From Cytophaga aurantiaca DSM 3654 (GTDB lineage: Bacteria > Bacteroidota > Bacteroidia > Cytophagales > Cytophagaceae), in NCBI RefSeq assembly GCF_000379725.1, contig NZ_KB903620.1, positions 50,663-114,662 of the forward strand: DNA of 64,000 nt, given 5' to 3'. The stretch's first letter is position 1, and each line of letters begins with the position of its first letter. Below the pieces are notes generated by a model. It had not been told where the DNA came from, searched no databases, and worked only from the letters and a program-made list of their open reading frames with translations. Made by a program: the position numbers and the translations under genes. Positions 6,076 to 8,214 of this stretch are shown here, piece by piece.

Positions 6076-6300
6076 GGTATTTCTCGGGCTAATAACTATT
6101 AGGTATGTTAAAGTTATAAATTGTTGAAGAATATTCCTTTCTTCTTAGATTATTTAAACGATTAAGCTGATTCTTTATTTTAAATACTCCCTATTCCGCT
6201 TCGTTTACATCAGCTCTTAAGCATAAATTTGTCCATTTGGTTTTTTTTATAATTAAATGAACTCATACTGAATAAGATGAGAAATATTTGCTTGAAGCTG

Positions 6301-6331
6301 TTGCAAAATAGAAAACAAACTCTTAATATTG
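6301..6331 (+). promoter_or_regulatory. Probable promoter for tRNA-Asn
   Basis: TAATATTG at 6324-6331 matches TAnnTTTG at all but one base, with a TTG at 6301-6303, 20 bases upstream. The tRNA begins 21 bases after the -7 element. The upstream TAAATTTG at 6224-6231 is an exact match but further away. Confidence 0.45.
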
Positions 6332-6351
6332 CATTCCCAATTCGGAGACAC

Positions 6352-6425
6352 TCCTCCTTAGCTCAGCTGGTTAGAGCACATGACTGTTAATCATGGGGTC
6401 CTTGGTTCGAGCCCAAGAGGGGGAG
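6352..6425 (+). tRNA. tRNA-Asn (anticodon GTT)
   Basis: The acceptor TCCTCCT (6352-6358) pairs with AGGGGGA (6418-6424), with one T·G wobble at pair 4. The D arm is GCTC...GAGC. The anticodon stem CATGA/TCATG encloses a loop with anticodon GTT. The T arm is CTTGG-TTCGAGC-CCAAG. The discriminator is G6425, normal for bacterial tRNA-Asn. CCA is not encoded. The anticodon arm onward (6380-6427) is partly repeated at 6752-6823. Confidence 0.95.
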
Positions 6426-6431
6426 CACACT

Positions 6432-6462
6432 AAAGCCTTTAGAAATTCTAAAGGCTTTTTTT
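6432..6462 (+). terminator. Terminator after tRNA-Asn
   Basis: AAAGCCTTTAG (6432-6442) pairs with CTAAAGGCTTT (6448-6458) around a 5-base loop, followed by a long T tract. It separates the tRNA from the GIY-YIG gene, whose ATG lies only 17 bases after the stem. Confidence 0.85.
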
Positions 6463-6474
6463 ATTTTATTTTTT

Positions 6475-6762
6475 ATGGATACTGTATATACACTCTATTC
6501 TTCCAAACTTGATAAATTCTACATCGGTCAAACGACAGACATAAATAAGCGATTACTTCAGCACAATGACCCAGATAGTTCTTATTCTACTAAAGGAGGT
6601 CAGCCGTGGGAAATCTTTTTAACTATGCATTGTAATTCTATTGCCCATGCCATGAAACTTGAACGACATATCAAAAATATGAAAAGCAAAAAGTTTATTA
6701 TGGACTTGAAAAAATATCCTGAATTACTTGAACGTACCGTACAACGTTTTAATGACTGTTAA
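6475..6762 (+). CDS. Small GIY-YIG nuclease-domain protein
   Basis: The protein has 95 residues. The GIY-YIG core is visible as VYTLYSSKLDKFYIGQT (the V/GIY-like strand, then YIG), with the conserved Arg in NKRLLQHN and a Glu in MKLERHIK. Single-domain proteins of this size are abundant in Bacteroidota and are often labelled UvrC-like or UPF0213-like; what they cleave is unknown. The gene lies between tRNA-Asn and a partial copy of the same tRNA's 3' part. Its last codons (Asn-Asp-Cys-stop) are the copied anticodon-arm sequence, so the reading frame ends inside tRNA-derived DNA. The ATG directly follows a terminator, and I see no promoter match, so expression is unclear. It may be a mobile or homing-type passenger. 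Confidence 0.8.
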   Translation: MDTVYTLYSSKLDKFYIGQTTDINKRLLQHNDPDSSYSTKGGQPWEIFLTMHCNSIAHAMKLERHIKNMKSKKFIMDLKKYPELLERTVQRFNDC

Positions 6763-6823
6763 TCATGTCCCGACCCCGATAGCTATCGGGGTCGGGATTG
6801 GTTCGAGCCCAAGAGGGGGAGCA
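6752..6823 (+). repeat. Partial second copy of tRNA-Asn 3' part, split by a palindrome
   Basis: Positions 6752-6767 are identical to 6380-6395 of tRNA-Asn (16 bases, anticodon arm), and 6798-6823 are identical to 6402-6427 (26 bases, T arm, acceptor 3' strand and three trailing bases). Between them, the six bases GGGTCC of the true tRNA are replaced by a 30-bp palindrome. No 5' half is present, so it cannot fold as a tRNA. The arrangement looks like the distal duplicate left by insertion at a tRNA 3' end or by unequal recombination between tandem tRNAs. Confidence 0.9.
6768..6797. repeat. Perfect 30-bp palindrome
   Basis: TCCCGACCCCGATAG is followed directly by its exact reverse complement. 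The GC content is far higher than the surroundings. It sits at the position of the variable loop/T-stem junction of the tRNA-Asn fragment. It could be a dispersed REP-like element; no other copy is seen in this window. Confidence 0.9.
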
Positions 6824-6858
6824 AAAAGGTTACTAAGCAATTAGTAACCTTTTTTATT
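6823..6858 (+). terminator. Terminator after the tRNA-Asn fragment
   Basis: AAAAAGGTTACTAA (6823-6836) pairs with TTAGTAACCTTTTT (6841-6854) around a GCAA loop and runs into a T tract. It may be the original tRNA-Asn terminator, displaced by the insertion. Confidence 0.8.
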
Positions 6859-6948
6859 TTAAGCTTCTTCTGAAATGAAGTTTACTTTTGAAATACATTT
6901 AAAGCAAATTGCAATGGATTGCTTACGAGAACAAGGTATAACTCCTTA

Positions 6949-8214
6949 TTAAAAGTACTGCCCTTCTACAAACAACACAATCAACTTAAACACTTCCTTA
7001 TACTTCGTCAACGGTAAGGTCTTAGCCACATCCTGCACGTCGTGATACGCTGCTATACCGCCTAGGGTATAGATAAAAAAACACGGAACTTTTCTTTTAT
7101 AAAACGGATAGTGATCGGAATTGGCAGCTTCGCCGCGCATTTTTACTGCAGGCAATAACTGTTCTTTTTCATTTATTGCAACAAGTTCATTGTACTCTTT
7201 CTTAAACACACTACCATTCACCACCATAATTCCATCGTCGCCTGTTCCAAGCAGATCCAGGTTGATCAGGAAATGAATTGCAGCTAGTTCTATGGTTGGC
7301 TTCCGCACAAAATAAGACGAACCGATCAATCCGGATTCTTCGCCGGCAAATGCTATAAACACCATGCTGTATGCGGGTTTATAAGCACTGTAGTAATGCG
7401 CAAGCTCAAGCAACATACTAACACCGCTAGCATTGTCATTGGCGCCAGGGAAATAGGTTTTATTTCCTAATGTTCCTAAATGATCGTAATGTGCCGTGAT
7501 CACAATGAATGAATCAGGCTTAACACTTCCTTCAATGTAACCAATCACATTGCGTGCAAGGTGTTTTGATACGACTTCGTTTTCAACTTCAAAAGAAATT
7601 GTCTTTATATCTTTTGAAAAAGCTGCTGCCAACACTTCGAAAAATGGCGTGTCGTACGATTCATCTGCCAAGCCCATGGTGAGCTTTGTATCCTGCAATT
7701 CAATAATGGCTGCTGCCGAATAAAGTTGCTTCAACAAATCAATGGATGACTCTGTAAATTCTTTAAAATGTTTTTTATAATAAACGACTACAACTTTGCT
7801 TAAATCTTTTTTCAGAAAATCTGCATACACATTCTTATCTGTAAAAATCAATGAGTCAATGTACAATAATGGGAACGTGCCTTTACCCGAACCGCAGGTT
7901 GATCGCACGATGTAATCCACTCCGGGTTTAAAGCTCCCTTTGTCGGATGCTAAATGCATTTTACCGGGAAAGGTATTTATTCCATAGGTAAACGACTGGT
8001 AATAATCTGCAGTAAGGGGCTTAAGTCCGATTGCCTTGAATTGTGCTGCAAGATATTCAGCTGCTAAGGCATCACCATTTAACGCAGCACCTCTGCCATG
8101 AAACTTTTTTGATGTAAGTATTGAAATGTTTTTTTGAACACGTTCTAAATCTTGCGCAAAAGAACTAAAAATATAAAGCTGTATAAAAACGATGATGAAG
8201 ATTTTTAATTTCAT
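6949..8214 (-). CDS. M28 family zinc aminopeptidase, exported
   Basis: The protein has 421 residues with a signal peptide ending near Ala20 (SSFAQ). The M28 co-catalytic zinc set is complete: His242 and Asp244 in AHYDHLG, Asp260 in ANDNASG, Glu292-Glu293 in AGEESGL, Asp320 in NLDLLG and His391 in AYHDVQD. A protease-associated-like region precedes the metal domain. It should release N-terminal residues from peptides in the periplasm or outside the cell. Its start overlaps the VanZ-like gene's stop by 4 bases, so it is co-transcribed downstream of gcvH and the VanZ-like gene. Confidence 0.9.
   Translation of the reverse strand: MKLKIFIIVFIQLYIFSSFAQDLERVQKNISILTSKKFHGRGAALNGDALAAEYLAAQFKAIGLKPLTADYYQSFTYGINTFPGKMHLASDKGSFKPGVDYIVRSTCGSGKGTFPLLYIDSLIFTDKNVYADFLKKDLSKVVVVYYKKHFKEFTESSIDLLKQLYSAAAIIELQDTKLTMGLADESYDTPFFEVLAAAFSKDIKTISFEVENEVVSKHLARNVIGYIEGSVKPDSFIVITAHYDHLGTLGNKTYFPGANDNASGVSMLLELAHYYSAYKPAYSMVFIAFAGEESGLIGSSYFVRKPTIELAAIHFLINLDLLGTGDDGIMVVNGSVFKKEYNELVAINEKEQLLPAVKMRGEAANSDHYPFYKRKVPCFFIYTLGGIAAYHDVQDVAKTLPLTKYKEVFKLIVLFVEGQYF

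Follow-up and report, generated by a model that had tools for sequence, protein, structure and literature searches.

The tRNA-Asn locus and its counterparts in relatives

The locus described here lies in a 64,000-nt stretch of the genome of Cytophaga aurantiaca DSM 3654, referred to below as the window, and consists of an intact tRNA-Asn gene, a small nuclease gene and a second, interrupted copy of the 3' part of the same tRNA, with a terminator behind each tRNA sequence. The features are as follows (positions counted from the first base of the window):

6352..6426, + strand, intact tRNA-Asn(GTT), called by ARAGORN and the Rfam tRNA model
6432..6466, + strand, terminator-like hairpin and T run 3' of the intact tRNA, with a perfect 13-bp inverted repeat (arms 6432-6444/6446-6458, then the T run)
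6475..6762, + strand, GIY-YIG nuclease gene of 95 aa, from the ORF list (Pfam PF01541, 6.4e-13)
6752..6767, + strand, displaced tRNA bases 29-44 (anticodon arm), 16/16 identical to 6380-6395
6768..6797, no strand assigned, perfect 30-nt palindrome in place of the variable loop (tRNA bases 45-50), filling the gap between the two repeat blocks
6798..6823, + strand, displaced tRNA bases 51-76 (T arm and 3' acceptor strand), 26/26 identical to 6402-6427
6823..6860, + strand, terminator 3' of the displaced copy, with a perfect 14-bp inverted repeat (arms 6823-6836/6841-6854) and a T run

The original prediction had described a lone GIY-YIG gene between a tRNA and two exact repeat blocks of its 3' part, each copy followed by a strong terminator of its own, and this description was borne out: both repeats are exact, a perfect inverted repeat and T run stand 3' of both copies, the Pfam match confirms the identity of the gene, and it is the sole ORF of at least 60 aa listed within the window element. 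Two features were absent from that account, namely the 30-nt palindrome and the position of the nuclease stop codon. The 3' end of the nuclease ORF corresponds to tRNA bases 29-42, with the last codons and the stop within the displaced anticodon arm; since the codons GAC TGT TAA (6754-6762) are copied anticodon arm, the stop codon derives from the displaced tRNA. The longest exact direct repeat within 6200-7100 is 26 bases long, against a maximum of 14 among 300 dinucleotide shuffles. A DNA search of the same genome found one full tRNA-Asn copy (75/75 match), the remaining matches being five at 80-85% and a 25-base partial copy, which is the displaced end. On the reading adopted here, the 3' part of the intact tRNA-Asn is taken as supplied by the element, the terminator at 6432..6466 as the element's own, and that at 6823..6860 as the one native to the tRNA gene. 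Integrases that target tRNAs usually leave a replaced tRNA 3' end behind as well, so that the duplication might go back to the integrase of a larger, since-lost island with the nuclease as leftover cargo. This origin is highly improbable, as the GIY-YIG gene is the only listed ORF of this size in the window element, the loci read repeatedly show units of about 0.3-0.5 kb in which this is likewise the one gene, and the choice of tRNA tracks the nuclease tree (see below). Two candidates were rejected: an integrase-borne tRNA island, with no integrase among the ORFs of at least 60 aa within the window element, and a group I intron with an endonuclease, the Rfam search of the window at gathering thresholds having returned three tRNAs only.

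Comparison of the locus with relatives, where the original prediction had suggested seeking an empty site, gave a mixed outcome: the insertion is kept in one relative (G003), with a broken nuclease ORF, and no clean empty site was found among the three relatives compared (G003, G002 and G009). In G003, a similar terminator follows the tRNA-Asn immediately before the GIY remnant. In G002, the same M28 gene is flanked by only 49 bp of displaced end and native terminator, matching window 6811-6859 at 100%. Neither the tRNA-Asn nor the neighbouring protease gene is present beside M28 in the stretch of G002 examined (L164), and the element may mark a rearrangement breakpoint there. In G009 the tRNA-Asn is uninterrupted and has a terminator behind it, the nuclease is absent, and 1.2 kb of other sequence precede M28. 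The evidence for insertion is thus weaker at the window's own locus than in another genus, in which syntenic tRNA sites were fetched via their flanking genes (the 30 best-scoring places per search plus the starting locus). The tRNA-Asn was present in 29 of the 31 syntenic loci, of which five carry the nuclease, 20 do not, and four have only 76-180 bp after the tRNA, too short to decide; the tRNA-Pro was present in 28 of 31, three with the nuclease (L104, L305 and L314) and 25 without. The occupied fraction in this genus is therefore 5/25 decidable tRNA-Asn sites and 3/28 tRNA-Pro sites. A further locus (L313) has four nuclease matches, with the tRNA absent from the stretch examined.

The empty site that was missing among the window's relatives was found in this genus, in the comparison of an occupied locus (L337) with an empty one (L332). 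The two match at 83.5% over 1.8 kb upstream, the upstream side leaving about 1 kb (L337 1839-2829) unaligned, and at 95.1% over 410 bp downstream, where the match begins within the tRNA 3' end; about 400 bp separate the intact tRNA of L337 from its displaced end, and its nuclease ORF has an in-frame stop. This pattern of matches points to an insert of about 400 bp, with the native 3' end and terminator displaced. Among the non-carriers, one (L321, one of the 20) has a nuclease remnant 759 bp downstream, and another (L289) retains the tRNA end and terminator a second time, 153 bp downstream, in what resembles a scar. The five tRNA-Asn nucleases of this genus fall into one clade of four and a fifth that stands apart, so that at least two lineages have occupied the tRNA-Asn site; because four of five belong to one clade and because L321 holds a remnant, part of the patchiness is probably loss, and loss besides gain is likely at this site. 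In the occupied allele the displaced copy is interrupted by a palindrome, while the carriers' intact tRNA-Asn is unchanged: its bases 6-68 are identical in carriers and non-carriers (5 and 24 loci), and the intact gene thus has no visible protection from the proposed nuclease.

The nuclease family and its tRNA genes

In an alignment of ten nuclease sequences (A1), Y16, H30 and E63 are invariant and Y5, G18 and R26 nearly so; we take these conserved GIY-YIG residues to be of catalytic type. The closest solved relatives by sequence profile are UPF0213/SLX1-type GIY-YIG proteins (PDB 1zg2, 1ywl and 7cq2), which to our knowledge have not been described as mobile or tRNA-linked. Ten orthologous nuclease pairs were compared (three from Pedobacter, with L256 of that genus left out, six from the Aquiflexum group, and L159/L319): dN was 0.05-0.17 and dS 0.31-2.2 in seven, and dN 0-0.02 and dS 0.10-0.36 in the remaining three, so that dN lies below dS in all computed pairs, several dS values being near saturation. 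No phage match to the protein of locus L044, used as a single query, was found at 1e-5. The genome of the window holds three nuclease homologues, each beside an ARAGORN-called tRNA or tRNA-like sequence (Asn, Leu and Lys), the "Lys" call (L003) being itself a damaged copy that resembles tRNA-Val. At the tRNA-Leu locus (L002 1617-1634), a palindrome copy lies in frame within the minus-strand nuclease gene and adds residues to the protein.

The association with tRNA genes was followed at several taxonomic levels. At the family level, nuclease matches were found in 11 of 19 genomes, at 17 places, 15 of which have a same-strand tRNA within 1.5 kb upstream, one an opposite-strand tRNA only and one none; a partial tRNA copy past the nuclease gene was present at 12 of the 17, in one case merely 12 bases long. 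The family loci read have the same layout at Asn, His, Pro, Val and Met tRNAs, with different palindromes in the displaced copies. The L044 protein was matched at E <= 1e-8 in 136 of 395 genomes of the class and 106 of 296 genomes of a phylum sample; the two samples overlap, and tRNA adjacency was checked in the examined loci only. A wider survey comprised 125 loci with 164 nuclease matches, from which 23 matches shorter than 70 aa were excluded to leave 141 genes, and two loci were omitted from the counts (L055 and L100, which repeat the gene of L003 and the place of L076, respectively). The 110 loci of the class-wide search comprised 30 fetched and 80 picked by eye in E-value order among the matches listed, places near contig ends mostly being left out of the latter.

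Across these 125 loci, 81 of the 141 genes have their start no more than 150 bp behind a same-strand tRNA; the distance is 150-600 bp for 25 and larger for 7, and the adjacent tRNAs represent 18 anticodon types. A downstream partial copy of the tRNA 3' part, sought up to 700 bp downstream, was found for 91 of the 113 genes with a same-strand tRNA within 1.5 kb upstream, which answers the question, raised with the original prediction, of whether homologues elsewhere also lie between a tRNA and a 3' copy of it. Together with the L337/L332 pair, this survey supports the reading of the window as an insertion into a tRNA 3' end that restored the tRNA and displaced the old end. Of the 28 genes without an upstream same-strand tRNA, eight have a same-strand tRNA just downstream; the other 20 have no intact same-strand tRNA in reach, seven of them with less than 600 bp of upstream sequence. 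Several of the tRNA-less loci read keep tRNA fragments with palindromes, and three loci adjoin an opposite-strand tRNA (L048, L120 and L131, the last two that of tRNA-Ala). Rfam searches of 20 loci, most of them without an upstream tRNA, gave tRNA hits in five loci, an unrelated Flavo-1 in another, and no other RNA target. In control loci of two other genes, a tRNA within 150 bp was found in 0/30 and 0/15 (0/45 in total); the M28 control omits the window locus and that of G003, both being the tRNA-Asn site, and the loci of the L249 flank search (another genus, 30-38% identity, no synteny) were used only as control. A named set, the best 80 of 296 loci, which partly overlaps the 125-locus survey, gave 55 loci with a tRNA within 150 bp, 11 with one farther upstream, five with a tRNA only downstream (these including unrelated ones such as Cys and Gln), five at contig edges and four with none; the 3' copy was found downstream in 58 and a palindrome at the junction in 45. 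Judging by their labels, all 80 are from Bacteroidota except one labelled 'bacterium' and two bins labelled Streptomyces and Bifidobacterium. These two (L212 and L246) are Bacteroidota-type loci on contigs labelled Streptomyces griseus and Bifidobacterium breve, which are probably mislabelled bins.

Many loci are more complex. Two or more nuclease matches were present in 30 loci, of which L114 consists of two separate elements and L050 and L044 hold pieces. Short nuclease copies (<70 aa) stand last in eight arrays (L056, L093, L101, L107, L127, L129, L140 and L157), first in L076 and, at contig edges, in L066 and L152, and in the middle of L128. The arrays are not uniformly younger near the tRNA, as L076, L084 and L128 do not fit such an order. 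A mirrored form was seen in the eight loci with the tRNA just downstream of the gene (L073, L116, L135, L139, L146, L148, L153 and L160); its order is a broken 5' tRNA copy, the nuclease and an intact tRNA, with the sequence upstream of the tRNA duplicated in several. The orientation of the tRNA relative to the flanking gene(s) is opposite in L210, L211 and L245 to that in L225 and L226, in L182 to that in L194 and L196, and in ten tRNA-Pro loci (e.g. L292, L294 and L314) to that in L104, as if the tRNAs, with or without a nuclease cassette, had been inverted in place. In L038 (1161-1393, reverse complement), two extra tRNA-Asn-like copies have a palindrome as a long variable arm; both remain ARAGORN tRNA calls, and annotation could count both as tRNAs. 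Tandem tRNA or pseudo-tRNA copies beside the gene, as in L038, L045 and L070, are what might be expected if an ancestral tandem tRNA pair had decayed with an unrelated nuclease gene between the two by chance. Such an origin is nonetheless very improbable in view of the recurrence of the arrangement at 18 anticodon types and the matching of nuclease clades to tRNA type, and it is disfavoured by the empty/occupied pair, in which L332 has a single tRNA where L337 bears the insertion.

Palindrome classes and nuclease clades

The distribution of tRNA type, host family and palindrome class was compared on a tree of 117 nuclease proteins, one per locus, built from a short alignment with weak resolution. 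On this tree, tRNA type requires 31 changes (shuffled mean 68.5, minimum 64; 99 rows), host family 83 (shuffled mean 95.9, minimum 91; 117 rows) and palindrome class 4 (shuffled mean 19.1, minimum 16; 70 rows), indicating that a nuclease lineage passes between host families with its tRNA and its palindrome class unchanged. Both the class and the position of the palindrome go with the nuclease clade. In the Asp clade the palindrome lies at 38|51 (host families f60, f31 and f56), in the Met clade after CATA (f44, f8, f23, f52, f2 and f36) or CTTA (f14), and in the Val clade in the anticodon arm at about 28|46 (in at least f41, f2, f48, f40 and f56), a separate Val/Phe group having it in the T loop; at tRNA-Asn it lies at 44|51 or 45|51 in f1 and f56 and at 32|44 in f36 and f48. 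Placed palindromes numbered 110 over 82 genes, six of them being terminators behind the tRNA end and a few derived from the tRNA, and none passed the scan in 43 of the 141 nuclease genes. Two palindrome classes are present at different loci within each of three genomes (G275, G373 and G152), and the class is therefore not a property of the genome.

The palindromes are also dispersed. The 18-nt core of the window palindrome has 48 near-copies (at most two mismatches) in its own genome. The palindrome TCCCGATAGCTATCGGGA is a dispersed repeat of that genome (G000, 48 places), and many of the 19 places read (e.g. L023-L036) lie in the loops of terminator hairpins with differing outer stems. Among the 395 genomes of the class, there are 3761 occurrences of the pattern TCCCGA-N2..8-TCGGGA and 517 of the reversed pattern, about a sevenfold difference. 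Genomes with a nuclease match (E <= 1e-8, one query) have a mean of 16.0 palindromes, copies within nuclease loci contributing some of these, against 6.1 in genomes without a match (p = 1e-14); within-family permutation reached this in 0/2000 cases, and the control means for the reversed pattern were 1.32 and 1.30. Some unmatched genomes are rich in palindromes too (98 in G025), so that the link is not exclusive; such genomes may hold nucleases below the threshold.

Given the 48 near-copies in one genome, many of those read lying in terminator hairpins, the palindromes might be REP-like repeats in their own right, which insert into hairpin loops and persist in defunct tRNA copies without being parts of the element. 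The in-frame copy in the L002 nuclease gene and the fact that several loops of one displaced copy can be struck fit such a view, which we consider somewhat unlikely, since palindrome class tracks nuclease clade and not genome and exact palindrome positions recur across families. A wider proposal would join the two distributions in a two-part mobile system of GIY-YIG nucleases specific for tRNA isoacceptors, each with a palindrome class as the working end of its element; the nuclease would recognise or make the palindrome, and the machinery would scatter solo palindromes into terminator hairpins genome-wide. REP/RAYT systems likewise consist of short dispersed palindromes tied to a nuclease gene, RAYTs being relatives of HUH (Y1) transposases, and the system proposed would be their GIY-YIG counterpart, with dispersed palindromes and a nuclease gene in common and a GIY-YIG enzyme in place of HUH (Y1). 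Taken as a whole, this proposal is speculative and we regard it as doubtful.

The tRNA specificity of the clades and the excess of dS over dN could also be expected of a tRNA-directed toxin or a domesticated host nuclease, for which the palindrome-bearing tRNA-like copies would serve as RNA decoys or antitoxins. The repetition of these copies, each with a terminator, and hairpins of similar size replacing the anticodon arm would accord with a decoy. We nevertheless give this explanation a slender chance: displaced copies often lack the 5' acceptor strand or hold several palindromes, the palindrome lies in the variable or T loop in other clades, a toxin has no need to sit within its target gene, and GIY-YIG enzymes are known as DNA nucleases.

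Proposed mechanism, significance and known systems

Together, these observations suggest that the feature in the window is probably a minimal mobile element of the homing type, about 0.4 kb long, that entered a tRNA gene. The original prediction of a minimal tRNA-targeting mobile gene gains support from the recurring architecture, the L337/L332 pair and the tRNA-specific clades. The element would be ordered as replacement tRNA 3' part, terminator, GIY-YIG gene, short tRNA copy and palindrome. The 5' part of the host tRNA would be completed by the 3' part brought by the element, the essential tRNA remaining whole, and the native 3' end and terminator would be pushed downstream. We infer that homing is by the nuclease itself: the putative enzyme would cut its cognate tRNA gene at the segment that the palindrome now occupies, and repair of the break would copy in the rest of the tRNA 3' part, the terminator, the ORF, the short left copy and the palindrome, the last abolishing the cut site in the displaced copy. 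The tandem arrays would grow by further rounds at the intact tRNA. Break-induced homing of this kind would account for the tRNA specificity, the clade-specific palindrome position, the intact tRNA, the displaced end and the arrays; it leaves unexplained why the intact tRNA survives, its bases 6-68 being the same in carriers and others.

No earlier description of the element or the palindrome was found in the literature of one open library. Should these prove to be homing elements, a major bacterial phylum has essential tRNA genes that are permanently targeted, and the family offers a ready-made collection of nucleases whose natural DNA sites are tRNA-specific; for these sites the palindromes provide a candidate map of cut sites per nuclease clade. 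The palindromes may further be relevant to a dispersed repeat family and to the growth and inversion of tRNA arrays in these genomes, and the nucleases raise the question of how a nuclease aimed at a near-invariable essential gene spares its own carrier.

Two known systems come closest, the nearest by enzyme and target being SegB of phages T4 and T6, and the nearest by architecture the fungal mitochondrial mORFs, as far as the parts of the sources consulted describe them. SegB is a free-standing GIY-YIG homing endonuclease that cuts within tRNA genes, is co-located with tRNAs and drives segmental amplification (PMC13096335; PMC2988022), and free-standing GIY-YIG enzymes usually cut their donor alleles with low efficiency (PMC13096335). 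SegB is phage-borne and reportedly without preference for particular tRNA isotypes, whereas the nuclease clades described here are tRNA-specific; the passages on SegB describe no replacement of a tRNA 3' end and no palindrome, both of which are seen here. In the mORFs, according to the part of the study consulted, an endonuclease ORF (LAGLIDADG, or GIY-YIG in atp9) brings a replacement 3' end for the host gene, leaving the native one downstream of the ORF, as in Allomyces atp6 and Glomus atp6, atp9, cox2 and nad3 (PMC3630166). The window element and L337 share with them the carried 3' end of the host gene and the native end displaced downstream. The mORF hosts are protein-coding and mitochondrial, whereas the host here is a bacterial tRNA gene. 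The inserted mORF ends, moreover, are foreign, being 64-81% identical to the gene of a relative against 91-98% for the native ends (PMC3630166), whereas the inserted part in the window is identical to the displaced one (26/26 and 16/16); a tRNA gene can hardly afford a foreign, diverged 3' end. Unlike in the mORFs as described there, the displaced copy is here broken by a palindrome. On the best reading, the element thus resembles the fungal mitochondrial mORFs, yet is aimed at bacterial tRNA genes and tipped with a palindrome matched to its nuclease clade.
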